64,000 nucleotides of DNA from Flagellimonas meridianipacifica. GTDB taxonomy: Bacteria; Bacteroidota; Bacteroidia; Flavobacteriales; Flavobacteriaceae. Shown here in pieces: positions 15,240 to 37,900 of this stretch. Position 1 is the stretch's first letter. Each line of letters opens with the position of its first letter. The position numbers and the translations under genes were made by a program. Below the pieces are notes generated by a model. That model was given only the letters and a program-made list of their open reading frames with translations. It did no database searches and was not told the DNA's origin. Location: positions 806,001-870,000 of the forward strand of contig NZ_PVYX01000002.1 in NCBI RefSeq assembly GCF_003001695.1, given 5' to 3'.

Positions 15240-15488
15240 TTATTTTCTAAAGTGCGGAGATTGCTCCTGAACCACATCGATTATAAAATACTTGGTATCG
15301 CCCAACCAAAAGAAGGTACCGTATCTTTCCTTGTAGGTTACTTTGACGTACTGCCCCTGAAAATCTTTCAACTTTTCGATAACTTCCTGTTCATTGTCCT
15401 GAACCGAAAATTTAAAGATTTGCGCCCCGGAGATACCCTGACTGATTTCACTTATAGGGTTAAAATAAAAATTCTCTGAATTAGTCAT
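15240..15488 (-). pseudogene. C-terminal half of a host gene split by the element
   Basis: An 82-codon open frame. Codons up to about base 15452 (MTNSENFYFNPI) come from the element. From the core onward, EISQGISGAQIFKFSV and YGTFFWLGDTKYFI is host sequence. The host N-terminal half lies 17.6 kb away at 32995-33183. Base 15451 and base 33029 are both second codon positions, so the two halves rejoin in frame into 121 residues with one N-terminal membrane helix. I recall full-length homologues of this small membrane-anchored protein in Flavobacteriaceae; their function is unknown. The fragment may still be translated but has lost its anchor. Confidence 0.9.
15439..15451. other. Left attachment junction of the integrated element
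   Basis: TGACTGATTTCAC, matching TGGCTGATTTCAC at 33017-33029 at 12 of 13 positions. On the coding strand it reads GTGAAATCAG(T/C)CA, encoding (S/G)EISQ in both gene halves. The exact crossover dinucleotide cannot be fixed from one sequence. Confidence 0.85.
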
Positions 15489-15524
15489 ACACTTCTATCA
15501 AAGGTAACATGAAATCATTTGACA

Positions 15525-15671
15525 ATGGAAAATGATATCGAATTAATATATAAGGAGGTTCAGAAGTTACCTCACTCTGAAAGGCGTGACAAAGTGCTAA
15601 TGATGCTTGCAATTTTATATAGTAGTTCGCAAACAAAACCTCAAAACAAATCTACTTCAGTTGAAAACTAA
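15525..15671 (+). CDS. Possible 48-residue small protein
   Basis: A short frame just inside the left junction, starting MENDIELIYKEVQKL and continuing HSERRDKVLMMLAILYSSS. The N-terminal half looks like one amphipathic helix. I recognise no family and see no Shine-Dalgarno sequence. It ends 29 bp before the nuclease-like membrane protein on the same strand, so the two could be co-transcribed. It could also be a chance frame. Confidence 0.35.
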   Translation: MENDIELIYKEVQKLPHSERRDKVLMMLAILYSSSQTKPQNKSTSVEN

Positions 15672-15700
15672 TTGATAGTTTTACTCTTATTCAGGATTAT

Positions 15701-16297
15701 ATGAAGAAAAGTGCCAAACTATATAAACCTACTCGTGAAGAGGATTTCATTTCTTATTACTTGTCAAATTCTAACATTAATTTTATCGAACAGTTCAAGG
15801 TAGAAAACTTAAAAGCTGATGATAAAAAGTATAGGGTAGTTGATTTTTACTTGAATAATTTGGATGTCTATGTGGAGTATTATGGTCTATACAATTCGAC
15901 TAAAGAAAAGCGAAAAGAATATGATAAAAAGACTAACGTCTATTTTTTAAACAACATGCCAACTGTTTTGATTTTCCCACATGAGCTGGGGTTCTTGGAT
16001 TATGCTTTTCACACTAAAATCATTAAGCTTTTTAAGCTTAAAAAATTCCAGGATAGAAAGTTAAAACTATATAGGTATCTGTTTTTTAGATATTTGAACA
16101 AAGGGAAATGGCAATATTTCTTTATTACTATTTTTTGGGCCTATTTGTTCTATGTATTCGGCTGGGAACTTGTAAAATTGGACGAGTCTCTGAACGCAAT
16201 ATTTGTCTTGATAAGTATAATACTCATGTGCTATTACGGAATCTACTTCTTACAAAACTTAATTTTGTTTATTTGGAGGAAGGGTGTTCTGGAATAA
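15701..16297 (+). CDS. PD-(D/E)XK nuclease-like domain with two C-terminal membrane helices
   Basis: Protein of 198 residues. About residues 10-100 resemble the small nuclease-like domain found beside UvrD-type helicases: D48 in VVDFYLNNLDVYVEYYG, E59 eleven residues later, then a lysine-rich helix (KEKRKEYDKKT) and a strand TVLIFPHEL. The usual E-x-K is E-Y-Y, so catalysis is uncertain. Two hydrophobic helices follow (about 137-158 and 165-191), which would put the domain on the cytoplasmic face of the membrane. The fusion is unusual. It is the first sizeable gene inside the left end of the element, and its function is unknown. Confidence 0.6.
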   Translation: MKKSAKLYKPTREEDFISYYLSNSNINFIEQFKVENLKADDKKYRVVDFYLNNLDVYVEYYGLYNSTKEKRKEYDKKTNVYFLNNMPTVLIFPHELGFLDYAFHTKIIKLFKLKKFQDRKLKLYRYLFFRYLNKGKWQYFFITIFWAYLFYVFGWELVKLDESLNAIFVLISIILMCYYGIYFLQNLILFIWRKGVLE

Positions 16298-16342
16298 GCA
16301 AATAGTCGTATGGGGCAATCGTGAAGAGATTGATAAAGACTA

Positions 16343-16720
16343 TTATTTTCTCGAATAATCCCTCCGCACGCCGTTAGAATCTTGTAAACGCATATTGCTT
16401 CCATCTAATTCTATGATTTGAAAAATAGAAGTACCCGTCACAGAAAAATTAATTGTCAAGATATTGGAATCAAAGCGCCAGGTTAAAGGTCGAAATTGTA
16501 AATCGTTGTTACCACTTTCAAAGTCATAAACTTCGGATTCACCAGTTCCATCTTCTTCTAGAATAATATCTGCATCATCTCTGGTCCATGTGCCTATGAG
16601 AAGTTCTCTAGATATTTCAATGGTGTCCTCAGGATTGTCCTCATTGTCTGAACTACAACCAAATAATAAAACGCTAAAGGTAGCTACTGATATAATTTTG
16701 AAAAGGAATTTTGATTTCAT
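16343..16720 (-). CDS. Small lipoprotein, lipocalin-like
   Basis: Protein of 125 residues with a lipoprotein signal (SVATFSVLLFGCSSDNEDN, lipidated Cys near residue 22). The beta-rich body has a LIGTWTRDDADIILEEDGTG start typical of lipocalin-like Bacteroidetes lipoproteins. The acidic SDNEDNPED stretch after the cysteine fits a surface-export signal. It lies in the element and converges with the nuclease-like gene 45 bp away. Its role is unknown. Confidence 0.75.
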   Translation of the reverse strand: MKSKFLFKIISVATFSVLLFGCSSDNEDNPEDTIEISRELLIGTWTRDDADIILEEDGTGESEVYDFESGNNDLQFRPLTWRFDSNILTINFSVTGTSIFQIIELDGSNMRLQDSNGVRRDYSRK

Positions 16721-16780
16721 GGCTTGATTTAAATATGTTTTTTACCAAAAACTCAAAAAACTTCAAAATATTATAAAAAT

Positions 16781-16796
16781 AACACCAAATGGTGTT
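16781..16796. promoter_or_regulatory. Inverted repeat between the lipoprotein and XRE genes
   Basis: AACACCA-AA-TGGTGTT: seven-base arms around two bases, 34 bp before the XRE start. The position between divergent genes favours an operator of the XRE regulator. A following run of six T also allows a hairpin reading, so the role is uncertain. Confidence 0.45.
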
Positions 16797-16829
16797 TTTT
16801 ATTGATTTACGGTTAGCCCAAATTGGGAT

Positions 16830-17081
16830 ATGCCGAAAAATTTATCAAAGGAAGACGTCAAATTACTAACCGATTTTGGTAGACGCCTACGTCGATTGAG
16901 AAAAGAGTGTGATTTAACGCAAGATGAGTTGGAGCATAAGGCAAAGGTTCATGATAATATGATTGGCCGATTGGAACGAGGGGAGAGAATTCCAAATTTC
17001 TTACAACTGATAAAAATATCTAATGCATTAGAGATTGAAATCTCAGAATTTTTCTCAGACCCACCCGAAGAATCAGAATAA
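16830..17081 (+). CDS. XRE family helix-turn-helix regulator
   Basis: Protein of 83 residues made up of a single HTH_3 domain: FGRRLRRLRKECDLTQDELE, then DNMIGRLERGERIPNFLQLI and a short acidic tail. It is the typical small regulator of mobile elements and probably controls the lipoprotein gene, itself or element functions through the inverted repeat at 16781-16796. No antitoxin partner is evident on either side. Confidence 0.88.
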   Translation: MPKNLSKEDVKLLTDFGRRLRRLRKECDLTQDELEHKAKVHDNMIGRLERGERIPNFLQLIKISNALEIEISEFFSDPPEESE

Positions 17082-17604
17082 AACCCTGAAATACTACTGA
17101 TTTCAGGTAAATTTTAAGCAATTCTCTGAGCATCCTCCTCCATCCCCTCGATTTAACCCTTTTTTACATTCAGAAAAACAAGAGGTGTAGTTAAATATCA
17201 CTTTTTTAAACATTAAAAATTTAATGATTCAAAGATTTGATATTAAGTGTTTTATGACCTAAATCTATCAAAAAAACTATTAGACCAGAGGTAGGGTTTT
17301 TGTAGGTTTTGCTAAAATTGGAAAACTTCCTCAAAAATGGACAAAAATGCATCATAACCCCCGATTTGCTGAAAATGGTAAAATTGCCCTTAAAATGTCG
17401 TTGTTTTCTATGCGCAAATGTGCCTCTTGTGTGCGTATGGGGATTTTGTAGGTTTTTTGATTTTGAAAATTACTTGAGGGATTGTGTCATTATCGACTGG
17501 TAACCATTAATGATTTTATAAGCCTTTTTTTTGATGTATCCCCCCTGACTTATTTTTTTGGCTTTGTGAAAATCAAGGCTTATTTCTGTTAAAAAAGCCG
17601 AATG
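17082..17604. other. Non-coding AT-rich stretch in the element
   Basis: No convincing gene. Contents: a hairpin CCTGAAAT/ATTTCAGG (17085-17107, loop of 7) just after the XRE stop without a T run; two direct copies of TTTTGTAGGTTTT (17298-17310 and 17444-17456); and a perfect 9-bp inverted repeat ATAAGCCTT/AAGGCTTAT (17518-17526 and 17575-17583). A 64-codon frame at 17309 is cysteine- and phenylalanine-rich and is not convincing. Confidence 0.5.
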
Positions 17605-18543
17605 TTATCCATTGCCTTTTATCAACTTACTGCTAAAACTCAAATCTTGTATTTCAACGTTGTGCTTGATGGACTCCTCAATATTTTCTTGGTTAAATAA
17701 TACAACTGCTAATTTTTCATTCTTGCCAGTAGCCTTTCTGTCACGAAAAACGGCACTTCTTAACTCAATCATATTGTGAATTAAACGACTGCACAATTTT
17801 GTCATTTTATAGTCTCTTTCTGGGTCAAATAATGTGGTCTTGACGATGGTCTCTTTTTCATTATCATCATAGAGTTGGTAGGAGGCAGAGTTTGAAAGGT
17901 CAAAAGTAATTTGCTCCTTTAGCGATTCGGCATCTAAAAAATGTATCGAGCTGAAGTTTGGGAAAACTCTCATCGTGTGTTTGTAAGCATTATATTCATC
18001 CCTTTTGGAGAAGTCTATAGCTAGAATCTTGATTATCTTTTTTATCGACTCGATGCTTTCTTGAACCTTAGCCTGGTAAGCATCATCGAATTTTTCCTTT
18101 GAGAAAGTACCAAGATAAAAAAGGTACTGTCCGATGCTTACTTCATAGTCGAGGAATTGAACTATTTGGTCGAGAAGACTCATCTTAAATTTTCCATTGG
18201 CTATGTATTCAATTTTTTTATAGTTCTTTCTCCAATTCGATTTGACAAGAGCTCTTAAGACGTTCCTGTTATCAGGTATCTTTCCATCTCTGGGCAGAAA
18301 AGCGAAAAAAAACTCAAAAAAGGTCTCTATAGAATGGAAATAATTCTGTCGCAAATCGGCTTGTAATATGAATTTTGTGTTTTTTGTTAAAGGGATTTTG
18401 AAGTCATCAATTCCAAGTTCATCTTCTCGAATTATGGAATTCAAACTTTCGGTATTAGACAACAGGTGATTTAAATAAATAGCTCGAACTTCGTGATATT
18501 CTTTTAAATAGTAATTATAGAAAGTTTTGTAATTAGCTTCCAA
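17605..18543 (-). CDS. Hypothetical helical protein, possibly HEPN-like
   Basis: Protein of 312 residues, rich in predicted helix, without signal peptide or membrane segment. I recognise no family with confidence. The stretch FSKRDEYNAYKHTMRVFP has the Y-N-x-x-K-H pattern seen in some uncharacterised HEPN-like proteins, and the middle (LQADLRQNYFHSIETFFEFF) fits such a helical bundle. HEPN folds often carry RNase activity, but a clear R-x4-6-H motif is not shown. It is the last of three unrecognised minus-strand genes (17.6-20.8 kb) that are spaced by about 100-160 bp, so each may have its own promoter. Confidence 0.65.
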   Translation of the reverse strand: MEANYKTFYNYYLKEYHEVRAIYLNHLLSNTESLNSIIREDELGIDDFKIPLTKNTKFILQADLRQNYFHSIETFFEFFFAFLPRDGKIPDNRNVLRALVKSNWRKNYKKIEYIANGKFKMSLLDQIVQFLDYEVSIGQYLFYLGTFSKEKFDDAYQAKVQESIESIKKIIKILAIDFSKRDEYNAYKHTMRVFPNFSSIHFLDAESLKEQITFDLSNSASYQLYDDNEKETIVKTTLFDPERDYKMTKLCSRLIHNMIELRSAVFRDRKATGKNEKLAVVLFNQENIEESIKHNVEIQDLSFSSKLIKGNG

Positions 18544-18704
18544 TGTAGTTCGGTTTCGAAGTTTTTTACTAATGAAATAAGCTATGACTTCGTTGGGGAA
18601 TCATTAACATGATTATTCCAACCAAATCTATCCTTTTTGTGAATGGCCTTTTGTAATATTTGGAAAACAACTACAACCAATTTCAGTCATTGGTACTAAG
18701 TATT

Positions 18705-19781
18705 TTAATCTGAAACAAAGTATTCAATCAAATTATGGTATGACAGTATGGTCAAGGTTAATCCCGTTTCAATATCATCATAGTTAATCCAAACAGAATA
18801 TATCATATTCTCATTTGGATTATCTAAATCATAAATCCCATGTACGTCATTAAAATCCCAGCTTCTTCCAGTCCAGTTGCGTCTATCTTCCAGGATGTCT
18901 AATTCATGGATTTCAAGTTCTTCATGTCCGCCATTATCTGGACCATATATCTTTATTAAGTTTTCAATTACTTCTACCATATTTACTAATGATATGTCCG
19001 TTGAAGAAGTAAATGTTAAATGGGTGGGTTTCTTGAAAGAATAGTCTTTCTGATGTCCACCTTGTTGGATTTCTAACTTGTCAAATACATTTAACTCTTT
19101 TGAATCCAATAAATAAAAGTATTTCACGGAGGCAATTGTTTCATCCTCTGACAAAACCTCAATTTTGGATTCTTCTGAGTTTGAAAAGATATAACTGAAA
19201 TCATTTTTTAAGTATTTGGCAATTGTCCAGTTTTTTCTCGGGGCCCTATTTATTTCTTTTTGTAAATGTTTCGTTACAAAAAGTGAAAACTCAAACATTG
19301 GGTCAATTCTGTATTGCAGTAAGATGGTAATGTTATCCAACACCCAGACATCAACCAATTCGTCATTTAATGATTGGTAGGCACCCTGCGTCAAGTTCAA
19401 AACTTTCTTTTTTTCTGTGAAAGAACTGTGTAATTCTGGATTATACAACGATTCTCCCAGAATTGAATGGATTGTATCTGCGGTTTCAATTATTTTACTA
19501 TAGTCTCGAGTTTTTGTGTACAAGATGTATTTTATATCTCCATTATCATGCTCTTTTATCAGTATACTATCAAATATTCCAAAGGCATTGATATTAAATT
19601 TAGTTTTTACTGCTACTACGCCAGATGCAATATCCGATGGGTTATTTAGAATTTGGTCATAGGATTCATTTTTGAAGCTGCTTTCTTTTAAAGCAAGAAT
19701 ATCAAGAACAGAGCTTTGACCATTACTTAAAGCTGATATGAATTCAACCAGAGATGTTTTGATTTTTTTCTTAAAGAACAT
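18705..19781 (-). CDS. Hypothetical protein, 358 residues
   Basis: No family recognised. It starts MFFKKKIKTSLVEF, has no signal peptide or membrane helix, and alternates strands and helices. Tryptophans and acidic residues cluster near the end (DRRNWTGRSWDFNDVHGIYD). A run of similar composition, SVWINYDDIETGLTLTILSY, suggests a beta-rich C-terminal domain. It lies between the 312-residue and SH3-containing genes on the same strand. Codon usage looks like that of the surrounding element genes. Confidence 0.65.
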   Translation of the reverse strand: MFFKKKIKTSLVEFISALSNGQSSVLDILALKESSFKNESYDQILNNPSDIASGVVAVKTKFNINAFGIFDSILIKEHDNGDIKYILYTKTRDYSKIIETADTIHSILGESLYNPELHSSFTEKKKVLNLTQGAYQSLNDELVDVWVLDNITILLQYRIDPMFEFSLFVTKHLQKEINRAPRKNWTIAKYLKNDFSYIFSNSEESKIEVLSEDETIASVKYFYLLDSKELNVFDKLEIQQGGHQKDYSFKKPTHLTFTSSTDISLVNMVEVIENLIKIYGPDNGGHEELEIHELDILEDRRNWTGRSWDFNDVHGIYDLDNPNENMIYSVWINYDDIETGLTLTILSYHNLIEYFVSD

Positions 19782-19879
19782 TTTGTTTTAAATGTTTACA
19801 AATAGTATTTATCATGATTGAAAGTTATTAAGAATCCAATAGTGAATCATATTCTAATTGAGGCATCCTACTTCCCAAT

Positions 19880-20845
19880 TCACTTCTTCTTCGTAAGGTA
19901 CTTTTTCAATATCCAACCTGTTCGTGGTAATCCATCTTCCAGGCCTGTATAACTTACAAACGCCCATTTATGATTTGTGCTTAACACAATTAATTCAAAA
20001 TTGGCTGGCAAAACATCAAGAATCAAAGTATTTTTCCTGGGTTTTAGACTCACTTTGCATTTGGTCCTTGTTATTCTATATTCTTTCTTTTCCTTGATTT
20101 TTTCCTCAAAAGTGATAAAATGGGATTTTATTACTTCGTTTATCTCTTCCTTAGTAGCAAATTCAGGTTTTGGAGTCCAATTTCTTAGCTCGCCAGAAAT
20201 GGCAAGGAGAAAACTTAATATTGTAATTATTTTCCAAATAATCGAGCCCCCATCCTTGTCAATTTGGTCAACTTTAATCTCTATTCTACCTAAAAAGTCC
20301 TTTAACTCTTTTAGATTTTCTTTCGTTATACCCTCGTCATCAACGATTTTCTCATTAATTGAGGTTGCCTTAGTGGTAATCTGCTCAAAGTCCGCAATTA
20401 AATTCCACTTTTGCTGAGTAACTGCCAGTTTTGCAAATTCGCTAGATACTCCAGTAAACGCATATTGTAGATTTGCTATCTGACTTGTGTCGGGTAAGCT
20501 TTTCTTGATATTATCAAAACTGGCAAATATTGATTTATGTTGAGCTCCTATTTTAGCGAAAGATTCCAAAACTGTTTTGGGAAATATTGTGTTGGATTGA
20601 AGGGCTGCTAATCTTTCAATATTGCTTTCTTTTATAATTGAGCTAATTTGTGTATTAAATCCAGAAAGATTTTTTAGCAAATTCGGTTCAATTGTTATAC
20701 CAACCATTTGATTTTGCAACTTTGCTGATTTCAACATTTTTATAATAGAATCATTTATCAATGGGGATACACCAATCTTTCCATGAATGTTAACAGTCTT
20801 CAAGGTGTCAGCCAAAGTTTTGATATTTTCTATTTTCTTGTCCAA
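19880..20845 (-). CDS. Membrane protein with C-terminal bacterial SH3-like domain
   Basis: Protein of 321 residues. The N-terminal 200 residues are helical and probably coiled (SIINKMLKSA-like stretches, KELKDFLGRIEIKVDQIDKD). One hydrophobic segment lies at about 205-222 (SIIWKIITILSFLLAISG). The last 70 residues resemble an SH3b domain (YRITRTKCKVSLKPRKNT, VLPANFELIVLSTNHKWAFV, TGWILKKYLTK). This architecture, a coiled N terminus with one helix and SH3, is seen in many uncharacterised accessory proteins. The function is unknown. Confidence 0.65.
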   Translation of the reverse strand: MDKKIENIKTLADTLKTVNIHGKIGVSPLINDSIIKMLKSAKLQNQMVGITIEPNLLKNLSGFNTQISSIIKESNIERLAALQSNTIFPKTVLESFAKIGAQHKSIFASFDNIKKSLPDTSQIANLQYAFTGVSSEFAKLAVTQQKWNLIADFEQITTKATSINEKIVDDEGITKENLKELKDFLGRIEIKVDQIDKDGGSIIWKIITILSFLLAISGELRNWTPKPEFATKEEINEVIKSHFITFEEKIKEKKEYRITRTKCKVSLKPRKNTLILDVLPANFELIVLSTNHKWAFVSYTGLEDGLPRTGWILKKYLTKKK

Positions 20846-21009
20846 ATTTTAAAACGTTTTCAGCAACTGGTTAAAGACCTCAGCTATGATTTCTATTGTA
20901 AGAAAACCCAATTAATTTTTTCTTTTGAATTCTAGTCGTACCGCAGATTATGGGATTTAAAGTTACCCAAAAAGCACTAATGAGGTATATCATCTGTTGT
21001 TTGAAGGTT

Positions 21010-21540
21010 TTACTTCCATTTCTCTTGTTGGAAGAGTTTTATGTTGCCTAATATTCCATGTCTATCTTTAGTTAATTTGGTAATTCCGATAAAAACTCCA
21101 TTAGTTTTTGAAGGGTGGATATGTTTATTCACAATTAAATTGGTCACTTGTGAATCGTCATCAAATGCAACTCCAGTAAGTCCATCTAAAACTGATTTTG
21201 CTAGATTGTCCACATCCACTATTTTGAATTGTTTTTCTAAGGCTGAAACCGAAATAACAACTTCTACTTCATTTGGTTTCCTTATTCGGGTGTCATCATT
21301 GAAAATTCCCGAAGCTGTATTTTTAAGTAATTTCTCAAATTCAGCTACCGTGTTTTTCCCTGATTTTTTCAAATAGAAATCCTTCAAAATTTTTTCATTC
21401 CCATTTTCGTCAACTTCTATTGCATCTATTGCCTTGAATTGGTCATGTTTTGGTGGAATTGGCTTCCCTCCAAAAATTCCAAATAGAAAATCAATTTTTG
21501 GATTTTGATAAAACGTTACATGACTCTTTTGATTTGGCAT
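21010..21540 (-). CDS. RusA-like Holliday junction resolvase family protein
   Basis: Protein of 176 residues. The RusA signature is present: acidic residues D109 and D111 in VDVDNLAKSVLDGL with K115 and D119, then the acidic cluster D127-D129 in VAFDDDSQVTNLIVNKHIHP. It is longer than phage RusA (about 120 residues) because of an N-terminal extension and an internal insert. It probably cuts branched DNA, and such enzymes are common on phages and islands. It stands alone on the minus strand and diverges from the small serine resolvase. Confidence 0.8.
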   Translation of the reverse strand: MPNQKSHVTFYQNPKIDFLFGIFGGKPIPPKHDQFKAIDAIEVDENGNEKILKDFYLKKSGKNTVAEFEKLLKNTASGIFNDDTRIRKPNEVEVVISVSALEKQFKIVDVDNLAKSVLDGLTGVAFDDDSQVTNLIVNKHIHPSKTNGVFIGITKLTKDRHGILGNIKLFQQEKWK

Positions 21541-21781
21541 TTAACCTGGATTGCTTAAAACTTGTATGTAAAATACAGATACTCGTATTTAAATTTAAAA
21601 TAAGAATTATCTTAATGAATAATGCAGTTTTTTTCTTAAGAGTTGAAATATTAGAAAATAATCATGACTATGGCTGTATTAAGTTAGAACCATGCTCTTT
21701 TCTTAATACACTTAATCGAATAGTTCGAACGCTAATACTGATTTTCTTTTGTATTAATTATTACCACCCTATATTTAGTAC

Positions 21782-22360
21782 ATGAAAGCAAGATACGCAA
21801 GGGTAAGTACACCAAACCAGAAGTTAGAACGACAGTTGATTAAGCAAAACCCAAATGACAAATTGTATATAGATGTTTGTAGCGGCGCTATCCCCTTTGC
21901 AGAGCGTCTTGAGGGAAGCAAACTTTTGTCGGATGGACAAATAGACCACATTTCCGTAAACTCAATTGATAGGCTCGGTCGCAACCTCTTGGATGTACTT
22001 AATACCTTAAAGTGTTTCGAAGAAAAGAAGGTGGTCGTTAAAGTTGATAATCTTGGGATTGAGTCCCTAGTAAATAATAAGCCTAACCAGGCTTTTAATT
22101 TAATCGTTTCGGTACTTGCCAATATTTCAGAAATGGAAAGAACTACAATGTTGGAACGTCAAAGAGAGGGTATAGAAATGGCTAGAGCAAAGGGCAAGTA
22201 CAAAGGTCGTATTCGAGGTTCTAAAGAATCTAAGGATGAGTTTTTGTCAAAATACCCTGCAGTAATCAAACGACTTAAAGAAGGTCAGTCACTAAGAAAC
22301 ACAGCTAAGCTTTGTGATGTAAGTTTAGGAACTGTACAAAAAGTTAAAGCGGTCCTTTAG
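21782..22360 (+). CDS. Small serine recombinase (resolvase/invertase family)
   Basis: Recombinase of 192 residues, the usual size for Tn3-type resolvases and DNA invertases. The catalytic serine is S9 in RYARVSTPNQ, the conserved SIDRLGRNLLDVLNTL follows, the E-helix reads EMERTTMLERQREGIEMARA, and a C-terminal Hin-like helix-turn-helix is SLRNTAKLCDVSLGTVQKV. It could resolve element multimers or invert DNA, but I found no flanking inverted res/hix pair. Its stop is 7 bp from the stop of the KAP NTPase on the other strand. Confidence 0.92.
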   Translation: MKARYARVSTPNQKLERQLIKQNPNDKLYIDVCSGAIPFAERLEGSKLLSDGQIDHISVNSIDRLGRNLLDVLNTLKCFEEKKVVVKVDNLGIESLVNNKPNQAFNLIVSVLANISEMERTTMLERQREGIEMARAKGKYKGRIRGSKESKDEFLSKYPAVIKRLKEGQSLRNTAKLCDVSLGTVQKVKAVL

Positions 22361-22367
22361 AGATTTG

Positions 22368-23792
22368 TTATTTCTGAATCTTTATGTTTTCGAGTAAACT
22401 AATTCGAGAAAGCAAATGATTTAAACCAACATCACTGTAATCAAAGCTTACAAAAAATCTTTCGATAAAATTTTTAAGGTCAATATTATTTTCCGAAATA
22501 TCAAGATTGGATTTTACTAGTAAGTCATTTTCATTTGTCTCTTTGTTCTTGACAATGAGTAAATCTTTGTTATGATATCCGTTGATATGGTTATAGTAGA
22601 GGCAAAGGGTTTGCCCAAGAAGAAACACAAAATATCGCCTGTTTTCATCAGTGACTATTTTTCGAAACATTCCCTCAATCGCCAATATAAATTCTTGTAG
22701 GGAATACCTTTTCTCTAATATTTCGTCATAAATCTTTTTATGAGTTAGATTTATGTAGGTTAGCAACAAGAGAGGAGCGGGAAAAACATAGTGATTTTCT
22801 CTAAATGTCTTAATCACAATAGAAACGTGGCCCAAAATTTTTTCAATCTGCCTTAAAGAAAGTTTGAAGTTCTCAAAAATGAGTAGGCAAATCTTATAGA
22901 AATTTTCAGAATCATATTCAAATCCACGATATTGACCTCTCTCTGGTGACTTAAAAAAGGTATCTATTTGAAAATAATCGATAAGGTGTCTAGTAAAGTT
23001 TGAAATATTAGGATTGGGTAGTCTAAATTCAATATCAATAAAACGTCTTAAGTATTCATTTGAATCGATACTTTCACTTCCATAAGCTCCTTTAATGGCA
23101 TTTCCTAGTTGGACCTTGTCAATAGAAAGAACAAACACAACTTGCGGGATATCAAAAATGTGTTTTATCCTTTCAAGTACTTCAACCGCATAACTTGGTC
23201 TACATCTATCAAGCTCATCAATAATAAAAATAATAGGTTTGTCAGAATCAATTTCAGTTATGTATTCTTGCAATGACGTTTTAAAGCTATCAATAGCTTT
23301 TTTCTGGTCTTTATAAGAGTCAAGTCCCTTTCTTAATTCTTCGATTGAATAGTCACCAAAACTTTCAGCAACACTGGCTATTGCATCATCTCCTACGGCT
23401 TTACTAAGCGCATGTTTCAACACTAATGGGAATAGTCTTTTTAACAGTGGTAGGGCATTTTCCAGAACTTTAGAGAACTTTTCTTCTCCCGAACCTTTTA
23501 GATTATTAAGCTCTGCTAAAAGAACATATATAACCTCGTTCTGGAAGTCATTTTCCCATGCATTGAAGTAAATAGTAGTATAGTTTTCATTTACTAGGCT
23601 TTGTCTCCACATTTTGACAAAAGTGGTTTTCCCAGTACCCCACTCGTTGTCGATTGCTAGTACAAATCCTGAATTATATGCTCTTATGATTTCGAGTAAT
23701 CCTTCCCCCAAATGTTTTCTATCAAGTTTACAATTGATATAAGGGTCCGTACCATCTATTGGTACTTGAATTTCACTATGTTTTATATGCAT
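22368..23792 (-). CDS. KAP family P-loop NTPase
   Basis: NTPase of 474 residues. Walker A is EWGTGKTTFVK (residues 50-60) and Walker B with following acidic residues is PIIFIIDELDRCRPSYA (186-202), both typical of KAP ATPases. Then comes FVLSIDKVQLGNAIKGAYG, a helical sensor region and a variable C terminus. Unlike classical KAP proteins, no membrane helices are inserted between the Walker motifs. KAP NTPases are frequent in islands, and some have been linked to phage defence. That link is family knowledge, not shown here. It stands alone, and its partner, if any, is not obvious. Confidence 0.88.
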   Translation of the reverse strand: MHIKHSEIQVPIDGTDPYINCKLDRKHLGEGLLEIIRAYNSGFVLAIDNEWGTGKTTFVKMWRQSLVNENYTTIYFNAWENDFQNEVIYVLLAELNNLKGSGEEKFSKVLENALPLLKRLFPLVLKHALSKAVGDDAIASVAESFGDYSIEELRKGLDSYKDQKKAIDSFKTSLQEYITEIDSDKPIIFIIDELDRCRPSYAVEVLERIKHIFDIPQVVFVLSIDKVQLGNAIKGAYGSESIDSNEYLRRFIDIEFRLPNPNISNFTRHLIDYFQIDTFFKSPERGQYRGFEYDSENFYKICLLIFENFKLSLRQIEKILGHVSIVIKTFRENHYVFPAPLLLLTYINLTHKKIYDEILEKRYSLQEFILAIEGMFRKIVTDENRRYFVFLLGQTLCLYYNHINGYHNKDLLIVKNKETNENDLLVKSNLDISENNIDLKNFIERFFVSFDYSDVGLNHLLSRISLLENIKIQK

Positions 23793-23891
23793 AAAATTGA
23801 GTTTGCTTACAGAAAAAAAGAAGGACTACAGAATTGCAATCATTTATAAAGGATTTGATGTCACCGAAAGAAGCAGAAATAATCATTGTTA

Positions 23892-24285: not shown

Positions 24286-24288
24286 TTT

Positions 24289-25467: not shown

Positions 25468-25575
25468 GTGTTAGTTTGGTTTTGGTTTATAATATGTGGT
25501 TGGGGGAGAGGTTAAAAGATATTGCTTCTGGATGAATTCAGACTAAAGAAAAACCTTAAAAATTTTAGGGGTTTT

Positions 25576-25929
25576 CTATACTTGGGAATCGACTAAAATA
25601 ACATGTGTACCTAATTCGTAACTCAATCTTTGGTTGTTGTGAACCGCTCTAATTGTCGAAATCAAATATTGTAGTTGTGAACTATCAATTTGGATAGTAA
25701 CGATGCTTGGTACGGACTCCGTCCTTAAGTTGCTCTCGAGTCTAAAAATATCGTTTCGGAGGGTATAGGACATTACCCAGTTTGGAGTAATACCAACTTT
25801 GTTAGGTTGCTGGACGACTAAATCCTTAGCTCTTATTTTGTATGTTTCATTCATACTTCGATAATGGCTATGCAACAATGTAAGCATTTTCTTTCTAAAA
25901 TTATCAGGACATAGCATCTTACTATGCAA
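25576..25929 (-). CDS. Possible hypothetical protein, 117 residues or shorter
   Basis: No family recognised. Alternative starts lie at 25917 and 25854 (MNETYKIRAKD); the last gives a compact protein of 92 residues containing VGITPNWVMSYTLRNDIF and VTIQIDSSQLQYLISTI. Absence of stops and plausible composition are the only support. It borders the folded non-coding region on the element's minus strand. Confidence 0.4.
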   Translation of the reverse strand: MHSKMLCPDNFRKKMLTLLHSHYRSMNETYKIRAKDLVVQQPNKVGITPNWVMSYTLRNDIFRLESNLRTESVPSIVTIQIDSSQLQYLISTIRAVHNNQRLSYELGTHVILVDSQV

Positions 25930-26116
25930 AGGCCCTTTATTTCGGTTGACAATTGCCTTAAATCTATCACCAACTAAAAAGAGCTATTTTAGTTAAGATT
26001 ACTCTCACTCAATATGTTAAAACAGGATTCGATTGATGGCGCACTCGACATTGATTTCCAAAACATCTTGCCTTTATTGATAAGATATGCGCCACTTGGT
26101 AAATCTGTTGAGAATT

Positions 26117-26376
26117 GGTTAACCTGGATAAGTAAACCTCGCTTGTTTTATCTAGTTGTTCGGTTAGATTCGTTCCGCTACGCTCCACTAACCATAACAA
26201 GGTTTACCCAATACGTACTATTTTGATTGCGGTGAACGTATTAGAAGTGCTATTATTTGGATTGATTAGTCTGGAGCCTTACGGCTAACTTGCAGAAATC
26301 CAAGAGTGTAATCACTTAATCTCGTGCCTGGCGGCACTCGAATGTCTTCACCGCATTTATCAAAGTACAACTTTGC
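26117..26376. ncRNA. Strongly folded non-coding segment (candidate structured RNA or foldback DNA)
   Basis: Within 25.93-26.77 kb, where no gene is convincing, this segment is GC-richer than its surroundings and full of paired arms. They are GTAAACC/GGTTTAC (26132-26138, 26201-26207) enclosing TTGTT/AACAA and GGTTAG/CTAACC; TGCGGTGAA/TTCACCGCA (26228-26236, 26347-26355, 9 bp); inside that, TTGGATT/AATCCAA (26257, 26297), AGCC/GGCT, AGTG/CACT and GTGCC/GGCAC hairpins; then CAAAGT/ACTTTG (26361-26375). The 9-bp stem closes a multi-branched loop. The strand is undecided because pairing is symmetric. A competing minus-strand frame of 62 codons (26266-26454) exists but has no start context. Confidence 0.45.
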
Positions 26377-26770
26377 TCTCCTGACAAGTCCGAGATACAC
26401 GTTAGCCAAAACCTTACGATAATGCTCAGTACAATCTAATGTAAAACACATCATTCAGCTCTTATTATAAATAAATACGTTAAATAATTGAATTACAATG
26501 ATTTAAAAAATCACCCCTTAGTCTAATCCCAATACCCCTAGTTTTAATCTAATTTATGGTTTAACACTTTATTAAGCCCTAAGATGCAATTTTGACATCG
26601 AATTAAGAAAAGTGTAAAACACTCGCACCCCCTATGTTATAAAGTCATCACAAAAAAAATTATTGATTATGTGAAAGGCATTTTAACAACTAAATTTGCG
26701 GTATTATCATCTATAATGTTAAATATCTGAACTATTATCAGTTTTGACATTAATCCCAAATCTTATTAGA

Positions 26771-27520: not shown

Positions 27521-27708
27521 GCCATACAAGGGAGTTAAGCAGATACGAAGGAGTGTTCTGGGATGAGCCTAATGGAAAATGGTTAGCAAGATTTGAAGAT
27601 AGATATCTAGGTCTTTTTAATGAAGAAGAGGAAGCTGCAAAGGAATTTGAAGTGTTTCTATCGAAAATGGGAAAATTTGATCAAGAAAGATTCAAAATCA
27701 AAATATAG
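27517..27708 (+). CDS. Mini-protein with AP2-like DNA-binding fold
   Basis: Protein of 63 residues from the ATG at 27517, which forms an ATGA overlap with the preceding stop. The pattern YEGVFWDEPNGKWLARFED, then LGLFNEEEEAAKEFEVFL, follows the AP2 layout (Y-x-G-V-x-W, G-K-W-x-A-x-I, L-G-x-F, then an E/A-rich helix). In bacteria and phages AP2 domains usually sit in HNH homing endonucleases. Here the domain is free-standing, which suggests a small DNA-binding accessory or regulator. Confidence 0.6.
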   Translation: MSHTRELSRYEGVFWDEPNGKWLARFEDRYLGLFNEEEEAAKEFEVFLSKMGKFDQERFKIKI

Positions 27709-27730
27709 TAACTAAACTAAAGTGAGTTAA

Positions 27731-28018
27731 GTGCAAGAGTTGAAACAAAAATATTACAACGCCACTAAAACCTTTCAACAAATTGGAATTAGTGACCAAG
27801 CCTATATTTATGAGGTCACTGACTTGGAAACTGACCATATCTATTATGAGGTTTTTGAAAGAAGATATAACAGACGTTTCGACTGTATTTCTTTTCCCAC
27901 AGACAAAGCGTTTGGAAAATGGGCATGGTGTATTTCAAGAGGAGCAGACCATAAATCCGCCCTTAAAGCTGCCTTACTAAAGTTTGAGCTTCTTAGAGTA
28001 CAAGAGGCAGCGGCATAA
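27731..28018 (+). CDS. Hypothetical protein, 95 residues
   Basis: Starts with GTG at 27731, 22 bp after the AP2-like gene, as the third gene of the operon. No family recognised. It has a strand-rich first half (YIYEVTDLETDHIYYEVFER) and a C-terminal helix (HKSALKAALLKFELLRVQEA). The Y-E-V-F-E-R-R part recalls short proteins encoded beside plasmid and island replication genes, but that is only an impression. Confidence 0.55.
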   Translation: MQELKQKYYNATKTFQQIGISDQAYIYEVTDLETDHIYYEVFERRYNRRFDCISFPTDKAFGKWAWCISRGADHKSALKAALLKFELLRVQEAAA

Positions 28019-28225
28019 TGTCCATTTTGAGGTTCGCAATGAGAGATTTAAGACACTTTTGTCAATTTTAAAGCAAAGACACCAAGCCGTTTCTAAAGTA
28101 GGCTTAAATTTTGGTTCGCATCAAAATTGAATTCTCAAACAACCAAAACCCATTAATCAATCAAAGTTTATTGAAGAGTTATCTATTAATAGTTTTTAAG
28201 CCTTAATGTTAGCTTGAAGAAATTC

Positions 28226-29833
28226 TTATGTCAAGATTAACCCCTTCTCATTCGAGTCAGTTTTGTTAAGTTTTTCCATCAACTTTGAAAGGTGGTTTCT
28301 TCTAATCCGAACATTATTCAAATCTTGTTGGTAAGACTCAAGCTCATTTTCATGCATAATTTTATTTTCTTCCCATTCTTGATTGTAATAATTATTGAAG
28401 AATCCATAAGCAATCACATAAAGAATGAGAAGAATTATTCCAGCTAGAATTATTCGCCAATACCATCTACTATCCAGGACAATCATTAAAACAATAAAAC
28501 CTATAAAAGCCCCGATTTGAGATTTGCTATTGAAAGAATCTACATCGTTTTGTAGAGATTGATGAGCTCTTGATTCGGTAGACCCGTAATTTTCAACCTT
28601 TGATTCGGCAATTTGAAGATTGTAATCTTCAGACTTAATAGCAGCCTCCAAGGCTCTTCTAAGTTCTTTTTTGAAATTGACATACTCGTAATTGAACTTA
28701 TTATAAATGCTTAGTAATCCTAAAAAATCATAGGGTTCTATTTGGCCAACCTCTTTGAACAGGTCGAATAGTTTCCTTGGAATTTGGGTTGTTGTACTTT
28801 CACCATGTGATGAAATTATCGGGTTATATTCAGGAAGATTATTATTAACCCATTTATACTTTACTTCTATTTCACTTTTTAACGAATTGCAAAGCCTCTT
28901 GACTAATGATACCCGATCATTGTGGTTAATTAAAATTCCTTCACTTCCATAGGTATATAGGTCTCTTATTAATTCAGGCCTGTTGTATAAAGCTTTTTGA
29001 ATATTTAGAAAACTGTCTACTGGCAGCCCCATTTTCATTTCAACTAGACCTTTTAACAGAAATATTGAAATATCATGGTCGGTATCTGAATTAACTATTC
29101 TTTGAATATATTCATAAGCATTTTGAAAATTCTCTTCTGATATTTCTATCAATACCAGATTAAACAGGGCTTCGTTGCGTATTTCAAGTATTATTCGATG
29201 CCCTTGATTACTCAATCTATCTGCTTGCAAATAGGCTGTCTTAGCTCTATTAAAGTCTTCCTTATACGCATAAGTATGTCCTAATTCTAACCAACTTAAG
29301 GGATTTGTTTTTCCCACAAAATCGTTTACTGAATTTTCGTAAAATTCAATTGCTTCTTCTAAATCCCGTTGATTTTCTCCATCAGAATTAATGGTGGCCC
29401 CAAAGCGCTGCTTACCCAATCGACGAAGAGCATCTGCATCTGTCATCCTACGATTTTTGAGTAACTCCAAAAGTTCTTGCTGGAACAGTTCTAATTTATC
29501 AACAATACGTTCTGTAGATTTTTGGATTGACTCATTTAAAACATCCAAACCGAGCTTGATATCGCCGAGACCTCGATTTATTTGTTCGAGCTGTTCATAG
29601 CTTTTTAAAGCGTAGGCTGCAAACATGCTCTTAATTTGTCTTAATTCTTCCGTGCTTGCATCAATCTTATCGAGATATCTATTTTCAATAGTTATTTGTT
29701 TCTGCTGTAATCTAATTAGTTCCTTGTTTGTTTTGGCAGTATCCATTTGAGCCAATTCCCGACTCGCTTCCATCGTTTTTGGGAAAAAGTGCTTTTGGAC
29801 TCGATAACCTATAGACCTGGTTAAATAACTCAT
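28226..29833 (-). CDS. Coiled-coil/TPR-like protein with C-terminal membrane helices
   Basis: Protein of 535 residues. Residues about 25-130 are long amphipathic helices (coiled coil; IENRYLDKIDASTEELRQI; GLDVLNESIQKSTERIVDKL). Residues about 155-290 contain TPR-like repeats (EEAIEFYENSVNDFV, LSWLELGHTYAYKEDFNRAK, AYEYIQRIVNSD). Two adjacent hydrophobic helices lie near residues 440-480 (IGAFIGFIVLMIVLD; IILAGIILLILYVIAYGFF), followed by a charged helical tail. It may be a membrane-attached scaffold or sensor. It diverges from the membrane-anchored Nudix-like gene across 326 bp, an arrangement that could be a functional pair. Confidence 0.7.
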   Translation of the reverse strand: MSYLTRSIGYRVQKHFFPKTMEASRELAQMDTAKTNKELIRLQQKQITIENRYLDKIDASTEELRQIKSMFAAYALKSYEQLEQINRGLGDIKLGLDVLNESIQKSTERIVDKLELFQQELLELLKNRRMTDADALRRLGKQRFGATINSDGENQRDLEEAIEFYENSVNDFVGKTNPLSWLELGHTYAYKEDFNRAKTAYLQADRLSNQGHRIILEIRNEALFNLVLIEISEENFQNAYEYIQRIVNSDTDHDISIFLLKGLVEMKMGLPVDSFLNIQKALYNRPELIRDLYTYGSEGILINHNDRVSLVKRLCNSLKSEIEVKYKWVNNNLPEYNPIISSHGESTTTQIPRKLFDLFKEVGQIEPYDFLGLLSIYNKFNYEYVNFKKELRRALEAAIKSEDYNLQIAESKVENYGSTESRAHQSLQNDVDSFNSKSQIGAFIGFIVLMIVLDSRWYWRIILAGIILLILYVIAYGFFNNYYNQEWEENKIMHENELESYQQDLNNVRIRRNHLSKLMEKLNKTDSNEKGLILT

Positions 29834-30159
29834 TTAAAATAAATTGGAAAACAGCTATCATGAATTTACAAATTTTAATGATGAGAAATATGTAACTAAT
29901 AGCAATTTGATTTAATATTAACAATGAGTTCGTTTCGAGAATAGAAATGATTCAAATCAAAAACTAAAATCTCAGTAAGACTAGTACCTATTCTATCTTT
30001 AGCCCTCTTGAATGTTTCGAAATGGAATAGGACAAATCAGTTATAGCATTAAGGGTTCAATTAAATCTTGTAATATTGAAATATGTGGCATCAAGATGAT
30101 TTTGCCCTAAAATAAAGACAAGGAAAGTTAGGTAACAGCAGCATTGCAAATAAATTCAA
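29834..30159. other. Divergent intergenic region without visible features
   Basis: A 326-bp AT-rich gap between two divergent genes. It must hold both promoters, but no exact TTG-N17/23-TAnnTTTG pair, palindrome or repeat stands out. CAAATTTTA just upstream of the minus-strand gene is a near match to the -7 consensus with one extra base. Confidence 0.4.
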
Positions 30160-31344
30160 ATGATAAAAGAATTATCTCGATTAATTAACAATTATCCCAT
30201 TGAATCATCCATAATAATATTTTTTGCGGGTATAATTTCAACATTTCTGCTAGAGAAACTTTTAGAAAAGGTAATTAGCAAGTATAAAACCAATAGGTTA
30301 AAGAAAAAGCTACGCAAGAGTTCATTGAAATCCATGAACAATGGTGATGTTTTTGCTTTGGCACATGGAACTCCCTTTTGGAAAGCAGAGGATGTTGAAG
30401 TCTTGAACTCAAAGAAGAAATTAATTGTGGTCATTCCAGAAAAGTTTAAAGAGAAATTTCTGAGTAACGACTCAAATTTTAAGTTTAGAGACTCTATCTA
30501 TTTCGATAGTGAATACTCTATGGAAGATTCAATAAGTGAAATGGGGATACCAGACCTGAGAGAACGAATTGAAAGGCACTCGAATATTGTGGCGGAAGAG
30601 CTTCTTAAAAAACAAACTGCAGGGAGATTGGTCTTTAATGGAGAAATGTTAGGTGTATTTGACATTAGGCCGATAAACGTCAATCAAGAAGAATATAGAA
30701 AGCTTAAAATAAGGACTTATGAAACAGATTTCTTTACCTATAGAGTTTTTGCCTCTATTTACAGGGAATTGAAAGAACAAGGGCATGCAATATCTCAGGT
30801 AACAAAAAGGGAGCAGATTATTAAATATAAACCATTTTTAAGTTCATTCGGCCTATGTACTTTTGTAATGCTTTACAACCAAACTGAAGTAGTTTTGGCT
30901 AAACGCTCACTTTACACTACACACAGTGAAAATAAGTGGCACTTTTCCATGAACGAGGCATTTTCTCAAACAGATTTTGATTATAATAAGCAGCCTGATT
31001 TGTTTAATTGTCATGTTCGTGGTCTGGAGGAGGAGCTAAACATAAATCCTAAGATTTCTAAAAAGACCATTTATTTTTTCGATGTAATTTTTAGCAGGGA
31101 AAAATTTGAGATGGGAATAACCTCTTTAATCTATTTGCCTGATTTTGCTTTTGAAGATTTAGAATTCTTCTATAGTTGTGCTAAGGATGGTGAAGTTGAA
31201 ACAGATGGTTTGGATATTATTAGGGCTGGGAAAAAGGAGGTTAAACGATTTATGAAGGAAAATGAAATGACCAATGGAGCAAAACTTGCACTTCAATTAT
31301 TGCTAGCAAGAGTACTTAATGATAAAATGCCTCCCTACAACTAA
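30160..31344 (+). CDS. Membrane-anchored Nudix-like protein
   Basis: Protein of 394 residues with one N-terminal membrane helix (about 15-33, ESSIIIFFAGIISTFLLEK). A central region follows that I do not recognise (VFALAHGTPFWKAEDVEVL, IVVIPEKFKEKFL). Residues about 225-390 resemble a Nudix domain: WHFSMNEAF, then VRGLEEELNI at 286-295 (R287, E291, E292), which fits the core RExxEE-x-G-U of the Nudix box, except that the first E is G288 and the glycine is N294. It could hydrolyse or simply bind a nucleotide. Membrane-anchored Nudix proteins are unusual. It converges with the integrase, sharing 4 bp. Confidence 0.65.
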   Translation: MIKELSRLINNYPIESSIIIFFAGIISTFLLEKLLEKVISKYKTNRLKKKLRKSSLKSMNNGDVFALAHGTPFWKAEDVEVLNSKKKLIVVIPEKFKEKFLSNDSNFKFRDSIYFDSEYSMEDSISEMGIPDLRERIERHSNIVAEELLKKQTAGRLVFNGEMLGVFDIRPINVNQEEYRKLKIRTYETDFFTYRVFASIYRELKEQGHAISQVTKREQIIKYKPFLSSFGLCTFVMLYNQTEVVLAKRSLYTTHSENKWHFSMNEAFSQTDFDYNKQPDLFNCHVRGLEEELNINPKISKKTIYFFDVIFSREKFEMGITSLIYLPDFAFEDLEFFYSCAKDGEVETDGLDIIRAGKKEVKRFMKENEMTNGAKLALQLLLARVLNDKMPPYN

Positions 31345-32948
31345 TTCAAAAAACCCTTTGACATGTCTTTTTCCATTTTTTCCTTTTGACTTGGAATACC
31401 TTTTAATCTATCTTGTTCATTTGATTTGATTATTCTTGCCAACGCTCTTTTTTCACGGGCAGGATGCAAGTTTGAACCGACCCATCCAACTAAGTGGTCG
31501 CCTTTCCAAGCCCCAGTGTAATCTTTTTCTATTTTGTAGGTATCTGGTTCTATGGGTAGATTGTAGTCGATGGTAATATGGTAGAAACTGTCTTTGTATT
31601 CCACCGTAACCGATTTTATGAGTTCTTGGAACAAACGGCTTTTTTCGTTCTTGCTAACTACTGTTGGGTCAAACTCCAACGTGGAAAGTGCATTTATGAT
31701 TTTGGATAGTTCTTCCATATCATGGACAATATCCTTTTCAAGCTTGTTGCGCTCTCTATCTATTCGGTTCTTCTCCTCAAACAGTTCGTCATCGGTCAAG
31801 ATTCCTTTTGCGCCCTGTCTCCTAATGTTCTTCCATTCCGTTTCAAGTGATGCTATCTTCTTCTCGGTAATCCTGATATTGTTTTCAAGGTTCTCCCTGT
31901 TACTGTTATCTGCCAGACTTTCTTCGACCCTGCGGCCTAGGTCACCATGCAGTACGACCATGTGCCATACGAAATCTTCGAGGTGGTTCTGCATTATGGC
32001 CTTGTTGCCACATGATTTACCACGGTACTTCATACTGTTGCAACGGTAGTAGACGTATTCTGTCCTATGGGCCTTGTTGCTGTGCTTTCTACCATGAAAG
32101 TTCTCTCCACAAACGCCACACTTTACAAGACCAGATAAAAGATAGTCTCTGTTGGCCCGTCCCTTAATGAACACTCCCTTTTCTTCCAGTATCTTTTGTG
32201 ATTTGTTGAAAACTGATTTGGTAATGATGGGTTCGATAGAGTAGTGGGTGTCCCTGAATTTTCTTTCCCCGATGTAGACACGGTTCTTTAAGATGTACCT
32301 TATTGTGGATGGTGTCCATTTATCGGTGCTTTTGGATTGGGTGGGTACTCCTGTATCATTTAACCAGTCACATATTGTTGTGCTTCCAATCCTTTTGTTG
32401 TAATCTGAGAATATCCTTTTGACAATCTTGGCGGCTTCCTTGTCCACCACCATATATCCCTTTTCATCGGCCTTATAACCGAATGGACAATTCCCAGATG
32501 CTTTACCTTCCCTAAAGTTTTGGGCAACGGCTTTTCTGATTTGTTCGGAAGCGAGACTTGCTTGGTATTTATTGACAAAGCTCATCAGTCCAGAATGGAA
32601 GTATTCACCAGACTGGCTAAAGTCAACTTGCTTACCTGCAAACCAAACTTCGATGTTATGTGATTGTACTAGGTCTGTAAAGTCCAGGAATGTCCTTAGC
32701 GACCTTTCTATACGGTTTTGATGCCTTGCCCAGACCTTGGTTATCTTACCGCTCCTGATGTCCTTAAAAAGCCTTTCCAGTTCAGGTCGGTCCGATATGT
32801 CGGCTTGACCAGAAATGCCCATGCCCTCATTGTAATGTTCGTAGGATAAATCTTGTCTCGATGCAAACTCTTTTCCTTCCCTTAACTGGTTCTCCAAAGA
32901 ATTGCTCTCATCGTCCTCACGAGACAAACGGGTGTATATGGCAAGCAT
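31341..32948 (-). CDS. Large serine integrase of the element
   Basis: Recombinase of 535 residues. The N-terminal catalytic domain has S9 in IYTRLSREDDESNSL and the conserved RHQNRIERSLRTF. The recombinase domain includes YILKNRVYIGERKFRD, and a zinc ribbon is formed by CGVCGENFHGR and a later YYRCNSMKYRGKSCGN. A C-terminal coiled coil follows (RITEKKIASLETEW; RERNKLEKDIVHDMEEL), as expected for large serine integrases. It acts at the CTGATTTCAC-containing sites at both ends of the element and starts 72 bp from the right junction. No recombination directionality factor was identified. Confidence 0.95.
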   Translation of the reverse strand: MLAIYTRLSREDDESNSLENQLREGKEFASRQDLSYEHYNEGMGISGQADISDRPELERLFKDIRSGKITKVWARHQNRIERSLRTFLDFTDLVQSHNIEVWFAGKQVDFSQSGEYFHSGLMSFVNKYQASLASEQIRKAVAQNFREGKASGNCPFGYKADEKGYMVVDKEAAKIVKRIFSDYNKRIGSTTICDWLNDTGVPTQSKSTDKWTPSTIRYILKNRVYIGERKFRDTHYSIEPIITKSVFNKSQKILEEKGVFIKGRANRDYLLSGLVKCGVCGENFHGRKHSNKAHRTEYVYYRCNSMKYRGKSCGNKAIMQNHLEDFVWHMVVLHGDLGRRVEESLADNSNRENLENNIRITEKKIASLETEWKNIRRQGAKGILTDDELFEEKNRIDRERNKLEKDIVHDMEELSKIINALSTLEFDPTVVSKNEKSRLFQELIKSVTVEYKDSFYHITIDYNLPIEPDTYKIEKDYTGAWKGDHLVGWVGSNLHPAREKRALARIIKSNEQDRLKGIPSQKEKMEKDMSKGFLN

Positions 32949-32980
32949 AAGCTATTGTTTAAGATTCTTGCGTATCTCAA

Positions 32981-33010
32981 CAAAATTATTAATTTTACCC
33001 CTTAAAACAA
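32981..33010 (-). promoter_or_regulatory. Promoter of the serine integrase
   Basis: On the minus strand TTG (33010-33008), 19 bases, then TAATTTTG (32988-32981), an exact match to the flavobacterial consensus, 33 bp upstream of the integrase ATG. The -33 element is 6 bp from the right junction repeat. Confidence 0.72.
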
Positions 33011-33183
33011 ATTGATTGGCTGATTTCACCTTCCCAGGTTTTGGCCAAAACTCCCTTGCGACTGAACTTGATGAGTTCGCCTGAGCGATAGCCTTCACTA
33101 AAAGGAACGTAATAGATGAAAGCAAAATAACCTGCTATTCCAAAAACAACAACGGTTATTAAAATGAACAAGAATTTACGCAT
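32995..33183 (-). pseudogene. N-terminal half of the host gene split by the element
   Basis: A 62-codon frame. It has a membrane helix (KFLFILITVVVFGIAGYFAF), then YYVPFSEGYRSGELIKFSRK and KTWEGEISQ up to the junction; the last six codons (SICFKG) are element-derived. Joined at the core to the 15240-15451 fragment, the reading continues as WEGEISQGISG and gives 121 residues. It starts 3 bp after rmuC, so the host order was rmuC - this gene - thioesterase. The truncated product may still be made, as a membrane peptide without its C-terminal domain. Confidence 0.9.
33017..33029. other. Right attachment junction of the integrated element
   Basis: TGGCTGATTTCAC, 12 of 13 bases identical to the left junction at 15439-15451. 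It lies inside the N-terminal half of the split host gene, in the same codon phase as the left copy. Confidence 0.85.
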
Positions 33184-37556: not shown

Positions 37557-37625
37557 CATGCCATCAAAAGTAAGATTATTTAATTTTTGTAAAAAAAGAT
37601 TAAACAGAATGATTACTTTCGTCGT

Positions 37626-37820: not shown

Positions 37821-37900
37821 AAACAAACAATGTTAAACTTTCGGGATAAAGGTTTACGTATGAAGCACATACTATTCTCCCGTTTATTCACTTAAACGAA

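Follow-up and report, generated by a model that had tools for sequence, protein, structure and literature searches.

We analysed a window of 64,000 nucleotides from Flagellimonas meridianipacifica (contig NZ_PVYX01000002.1, positions 806,001 to 870,000; all coordinates below are those of this whole stretch), in which an element of 17,578 bp, counted with one core, lies inside a small gene on the minus strand. The source genome comprises 4.38 Mb in 4 contigs. The 3' fragment of the small gene including the core (15240-15451, minus strand) has a host thioesterase gene of the 4HBT family (14692-15237, minus strand) as its downstream neighbour. The 5' fragment (33030-33183, minus strand), which encodes a membrane helix and the strand that comes first in a structure model, has host rmuC (33187-34530, minus strand) as its upstream neighbour. 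The inserted element between the two core copies (15452-33019) has a G+C content of 0.344, compared with 0.403 and 0.388 in the flanks.

The interrupted gene and its orthologues

The window contains the decamer CTGATTTCAC twice, beginning at 15442 and 33020, with no further copy on either strand. With TG(A/G) ahead of it, 12 of 13 bases are identical between 15439-15451 (attL core, TGACTGATTTCAC) and 33017-33029 (attR core, TGGCTGATTTCAC). When 15240-15451 and 33030-33183 were joined on the minus strand, a single frame of 121 codons plus stop was obtained, 3 bp from rmuC and 2 bp from the thioesterase gene. Rejoining the flanks confirmed what the original prediction had given as the fragment coordinates, the shared TG(A/G)CTGATTTCAC, the common codon phase and the 121-codon join, and the gaps of 3 bp and 2 bp that it had predicted for the order rmuC - small gene - thioesterase were the values found in the joined state.

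The open reading frames (ORFs) present in the genome exceed the fragments. The ORF of the 3' half has 82 codons (15240-15488, minus strand), in which 13 element-side residues (MTNSENFYFNPIS) precede the host 3' fragment in the same frame and the ATG comes from the element; the ORF of the 5' half has 62 codons (32995-33183) and continues through the core to 32995, with element-derived last residues SICFKG. In its own genome, an intact copy was absent and the joined protein had two partial matches, one over residues 52-121 and one over residues 1-59.

To place the joined protein among relatives, we used a genus set of 71 genomes including its own, of which 64 were matched, the own genome in two pieces. 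In 63 of the 70 other genomes the protein aligned nearly end to end with a single gene, the best orthologue (94% identity) being that of G066, an uncultured Allomuricauda isolate (locus L149); the nearest named relatives belong to Allomuricauda, Flagellimonas and Muricauda. A split copy was found in none of the 70. Moreover, a scan of named genomes confirmed 223 stretches, of which 80 were kept, and the junction was open in all 80, in 77 by a pattern check and in the remaining 3, for which the pattern was too strict, by reading. The joined protein also matched 180 of the 397 genomes searched in the wider family, its own included; the statement that the split case is single is made for the genus, the family having been judged among the matches listed. 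The uninterrupted gene between rmuC and the thioesterase gene that had been expected in relatives is what they carry. That the fragments are two unrelated small genes sharing a short motif by chance, for which nothing speaks except the shortness of the repeat, is ruled out for all practical purposes by this one-piece orthologue in 63/70 genus genomes and 80/80 named loci.

Among 30 fetched loci, rmuC adjoins the small gene in all 30, and the thioesterase gene lies inside the stretch in 28. The small gene and the thioesterase gene are in direct contact or have a short overlap in 20 of the 28 loci, counting as tight L018 and L025, where the thioesterase match begins at residue 11; they are 83-859 bp apart in the other 8. 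The suggestion that the element broke an operon thus has partial support, the putative operon being tightly spaced in most of these loci but gapped in 8. The exact core GGTGAAATCAG is present in only 2 of the 30 loci, and L002 differs from it by one synonymous base; the encoded residues at the junction are conserved among relatives although the core DNA is mostly inexact.

The small gene had no match in 7 genus genomes. In five of these (G003, G022, G043, G065 and G067; loci L059, L060, L062, L063 and L064) rmuC lies directly beside the thioesterase gene and the small gene is absent; in the other two (G005 and G023) the search gave nothing closer than a distant thioesterase (38%). Because rmuC is next to the thioesterase gene without the small gene in 5 of the 7, we conclude that the small gene is dispensable in nature. 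The attachment gene is thus common in the genus yet absent from some relatives, and an insertion in it is tolerable. As a separate observation, loci L061 and L075 (G015; L196, Flagellimonas hadalis MT-229) have two additional 39-codon tandem copies of the small-gene 3' end directly downstream of the intact gene, each bearing the palindrome CCCCTCTTTTTAGAGGGG.

In an alignment of 14 orthologues, the N-terminal helix was shared and conservation was very high over residues 22-60. In the structure model of the L149 orthologue, a helix spans residues 2-25 and a strand residues 30-40, with more strands from residue 54; the model is of low confidence, with a mean predicted local distance difference test (pLDDT) score of 65.7 and its minimum at residues 43-62. 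Compared with solved structures, the model gave no match at E <= 0.001, and comparison with the sequences of solved proteins gave no convincing E-value. Because the model is of low confidence and neither a solved structure nor a solved sequence matched, we propose no function for the small gene. The insertion point at codons 52-56 of 121 leaves the anchor and first strand on one side and the remainder on the other. After the insertion the small gene is not complete: the helix and first strand are lost, and the 13 gained residues are unlike them. Despite the in-frame ATG of the element, the gene is probably inactivated, as its membrane helix is lost together with some of its best-conserved stretch.

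Compared with L002, codons 1-51 carry 19 synonymous and 1 non-synonymous changes and codons 52-121 carry 26 and 6; the corresponding counts are 98 and 9 for rmuC and 53 and 8 for the thioesterase gene. Constraint on both halves seems to have held for most of the time since divergence, and the mostly synonymous change in both halves supports that the insertion is probably recent.

The integrase, the attachment sites and the cargo

The element encodes a large serine integrase of 535 amino acids (31341-32948, minus strand) at its attR end. The protein looks intact and contains all three large-serine-integrase domains (Resolvase, Recombinase and Zn_ribbon_recom) in one long chain; its best-scoring solved relative is the A118 integrase, and we take Ser9 in YTRLSRED to be the catalytic residue. 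The start codon of the gene is 71 bp from the attR core. The assignment of this gene as the inserter, made in the original prediction, is supported by the three domains, by this short distance and by the same placement of the integrase in a sister element (see below), from which we infer that the integrase catalysed the event.

In total, the locus has two gene halves and a core repeat, the integrase at its attR end looks intact, and relatives have intact orthologues in the same gene order. With a probability of roughly 93%, we conclude that a genomic island with a large serine integrase entered a small, conserved, membrane-anchored gene by attP-attB recombination. In this event, attP of the island would have recombined with attB at codons 52-56, giving attL and attR (13 bp, 12 identical) and the two gene halves, and excision would restore the small gene exactly.

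Several observations weigh against this conclusion. The attP of a serine integrase is expected to have a dyad around a central dinucleotide, and in the rebuilt attP this dyad is weak, with 18 of 30 pairs (p ~0.01 with 30-base arms, 0.04 with 25 and 0.70 with 20), and attB shows no dyad. Moreover, among the 71 genus genomes, with 4 first-look candidates scored per genome, the whole element matched only its own genome. Finally, no excision factor was identified in the element, and no direct sign of mobility, such as a circular form or a second copy, was seen.

A short direct repeat flanking an element is also what a transposon would leave as a target-site duplication. By contrast, the repeat is imperfect (12/13), the recombinase at the element end is a large serine integrase, no terminal inverted repeats were seen by eye in 60 bases per end, and none of the 17 element ORFs matched a transposase family in Pfam, all of which makes a transposon insertion highly improbable. 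An element that intervenes in a gene in a regulated manner, like skin and gin of spore formers, would keep the gene off while split and restore it by programmed excision. The clean in-frame halves agree with this, as does the presence of two recombinase genes, compared with three described for gin (PMC5595907), and a similarity to XisF, which at 116 bits is far under the cutoff of 375 bits. However, none of the 70 other genus genomes has an insertion in the small gene, and 5 relatives are wholly without it. To our knowledge, no developmental programme is known in the genus. Altogether, we consider regulated excision very unlikely, and insertion of an island by its integrase the best explanation.

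The position of the crossover was read by comparison with the nearest sister element, that of G063, whose attP has a clear dyad by eye with 17 of 19 pairs around TA and a 14-bp core that begins at that TA. On the coding strand, the window and G063 sites both read GAAAT-N4-(C/T)A by eye, with CA in the window and TA in G063. Judged by this shared stretch, the crossover in the window most likely lies at its edge, at TG (CA on the coding strand), which is a post hoc reading. If so, the adjacent A/G difference would be the difference between attB and attP, and the wobble base of the host could be either; both A and G occur at that position in relatives.

The remaining cargo includes a small serine recombinase of 192 amino acids (21782-22360, plus strand), similar to a 197-amino-acid gene product in the sister element, and a KAP-family P-loop ATPase (22368-23792, minus strand; PF07693, 3.8e-40), which also matches the PADLOC candidate defence family PDC-S20 over its full length (1.9e-152). 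This candidate family was the only defence family found at full length in a scan of 10 element proteins. A 198-amino-acid protein (15701-16297, plus strand) has weak nuclease-like matches (PDC-S69, 3.3e-5; phrog_559, 6.1e-6). From these sequence matches, the cargo may include anti-phage functions. The element further encodes an HTH_3 regulator (16830-17081, plus strand), a RusA-like endonuclease (21010-21540, minus strand), a TPR protein of 535 amino acids (28226-29833, minus strand), a 394-amino-acid protein without a family match (30160-31344, plus strand) and several further proteins that match no family. Phage structural families were absent from the matches of 10 element proteins to PHROGs and of 17 element ORFs to Pfam, and the same 17 ORFs included no conjugation or transposase family. 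The G+C content is 0.424 in the integrase gene and 0.336 in the remaining element, and this contrast suggests that the element is of mosaic origin. Short matches to the element, of 66-76% identity, were found in 11 other genus genomes (4 candidates scored per genome).

In the stretch 25500-26740 of the element only short ORFs are present, possibly gene remnants. Outside the element, a cobalamin riboswitch (37615-37831, plus strand) lies ahead of an ORF (37901-39760) that is TonB receptor-like by eye, and opposite-strand ORFs at 34591-37643 resemble by eye an ABC uptake system.

Sister elements and their targets

Relatives of the integrase were found in 10 of the 71 genus genomes at 1e-20 and in 15 of the 397 family genomes at 1e-30; both counts include the source genome itself. 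A first scan of genome contigs and a scan of viral contigs with the integrase gave no relative, and tblastn searches of phages and plasmids yielded nothing but distant matches, with 24-28% identity among those listed. Longer stretches were read around most of the relatives, and Pfam supports one member per target type. An automatic direct-repeat scan had few true cores in its ranking, and homology to full-length genes was used in its place.

The integrase of G063 is 42% identical to that of the window over residues 1-424 (36% over 547 columns) and is placed at the same end of its own element, which has a different target gene. Its 14-bp core was chosen over two longer repeats of 15 bp because it is the one with which the target gene rejoins in frame. 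Like the window element, the G063 element carries a small serine recombinase and a KAP ATPase, the latter of 1096 amino acids compared with 474 in the window element. Unlike the window element, it is ~10.5 kb long and has a target of the AIM24 family, the start of which is replaced instead of the gene being cut in its middle.

Besides AIM24, the targets are genes for DUF72 proteins (G031, G025, G002 and G051), RadC (G285, G058 and G022), SIR2 proteins (G028b and, by eye, G152), a competence-family protein (G399) and, in at least 10 genomes as judged by the integrase-side fragment, a Mg-chelatase-like protein, the gene for which is presumably comM. Among the matches listed, the integrase follows the 5' fragment in the window, in G063, in three radC, four DUF72 and ten comM elements, and by eye in G152 (SIR2). 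As a general rule this arrangement was rejected, because in G028b (L131; SIR2) and G399 (L035; competence family) it is the 3' fragment that adjoins the integrase. In G133 (L133-L134), the comM 5' fragment lies ~15 kb away on the opposite strand, and its 3' part was not found. In G373 (L115-L116), comM has two more short matches ~13 and 16 kb past its 3' fragment, both to the end of the gene (residues 463-514 and 455-510, respectively); they are possibly traces of earlier insertions.

Possible exchange of gene starts and relation to known islands

The sister elements bear on a further reading, compatible with that of an island, in which the 5' end of the target is swapped for one supplied by the element. 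The element would bring a start codon, perhaps together with a promoter, so that expression of the 3' half and of the thioesterase gene would continue, and the integrase would lie downstream of the rmuC promoter. In the window, an in-frame ATG lies 13 codons ahead of the junction with TACCTTTG upstream of it (15499-15506, minus strand), which matches the Bacteroidota -7 box consensus TAnnTTTG and points outward from the element, in the direction of the 3' fragment. This match is weak evidence: two others occur in ~520 nt around attP and 13 in the element on both strands, and no TAnnTTTG was found at the G063 end. In G063, MNAHEIDYEIYG is exchanged for the element-derived MSSTNHEIDYEIYG, and the whole AIM24-family protein is preserved; the original gene start there was read from the joined flanks. 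In all three DUF72 elements of which both ends were read, a complete gene of 294 amino acids with a different N terminus lies at the far end of the element, and in all three radC 3' fragments an ATG from the element precedes the JAB domain. Replacement of a 5' end has a precedent in dusA islands (PMC4482086).

By contrast, only 1 of 6 comM 3' fragments is preceded by an ATG, the orientation is reversed in G028b and G399, and in G133 the comM 5' fragment lies on the far side on the opposite strand. Moreover, the small gene of the window is left without its helix, its first strand and many of its invariant residues. The chance of an in-frame ATG before a stop in the window element is 31% for the sequence as it is and 20% when shuffled (49% with GTG and TTG also allowed); because this chance is 20-31%, the single in-frame ATG of the window proves nothing.

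Over all cases scored, an element-side in-frame ATG was present in 9 of 14 (window 1/1, G063 1/1, radC 3/3, DUF72 3/3, comM 1/6), and a start codon as a general rule was rejected. Binomial figures of 0.0004-0.016, for backgrounds of 0.20-0.33, overstate the evidence because the cases are not independent. Outside the 14 are G028b and G399, with the opposite orientation and no ATG ahead of the host part in the ORFs listed; G049, G051 and G429, for which the part examined had no 3' fragment; G152, G258 and the two G156 loci, which are contig ends or were not analysed; and G133 and G028a, without a clear arrangement. On balance, an exchange of the gene start in the window is possible, with the odds against it.

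The DUF72 elements (L117, L119 and L121-L122) have ~60 codons of diverged N terminus, differing up to a TKDEL junction, and these three elements appear to rebuild their target gene. Alternatively, the far copies could be pre-existing paralogues. A query of 59 N-terminal amino acids of DUF72 gave a single match in 5 of 7 genomes and none in 2, and we counted this result against a paralogue origin; a paralogue with another N terminus could escape this query. A broader proposal is that some islands of the flavobacterial family swap gene starts, in that integration places an integrase-distal start codon, perhaps with a promoter, in frame ahead of the target's 3' part and brings the integrase under the target promoter; AIM24 and DUF72 genes would be repaired in this way, and radC and the small gene would each yield a separate C-terminal protein. 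We regard this generalization as rather improbable.

The integrases of dusA islands are of the tyrosine type, unlike the serine integrase of the window. In these islands the element supplies new 5' sequence to a coding-gene target, and they are a good parallel for the AIM24 and DUF72 sister elements; the dusA insertion is at the 5' end of the gene, compared with codons 52-56 of 121 in the window, where restoration is unlikely (PMC4482086). Islands and prophages described in a survey of large serine recombinases, whose targets are enriched in competence genes, resemble the window element in having a large serine recombinase and a short att core inside a conserved coding gene, and the comM and competence-family targets of the integrase relatives agree with this enrichment (PMC10083194). 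In the window element, the ORFs scanned include no phage structural or conjugation family. A small gene between rmuC and a thioesterase gene is named as a target in none of the survey passages considered (PMC10083194). The gin element lies in gerE of Bacillus cereus and has a 9-bp consensus at its ends; it parallels the window element, which is apparently non-phage as well, in interrupting a small gene and in carrying several recombinases. Recombination rejoins gerE when gin excises during sporulation, and rejoining is predicted for the small gene of the window (PMC5595907).

A literature search on serine integrases in Flavobacterium and Bacteroidetes, on flavobacterial islands and on Muricauda islands gave, among the papers listed, nothing on this target, subscription journals being mostly outside its coverage. 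The type of event, an island with a large serine integrase, is known; the attachment gene appears to be new and was not found in print in this search. The target gene and the apparent repair of hit genes by sister islands are worth recording. With the sister set, the locus provides a complete predicted set of attB, attP, attL and attR for a marine flavobacterial serine integrase, and how such integrases switch targets, and when they repair them, becomes testable.

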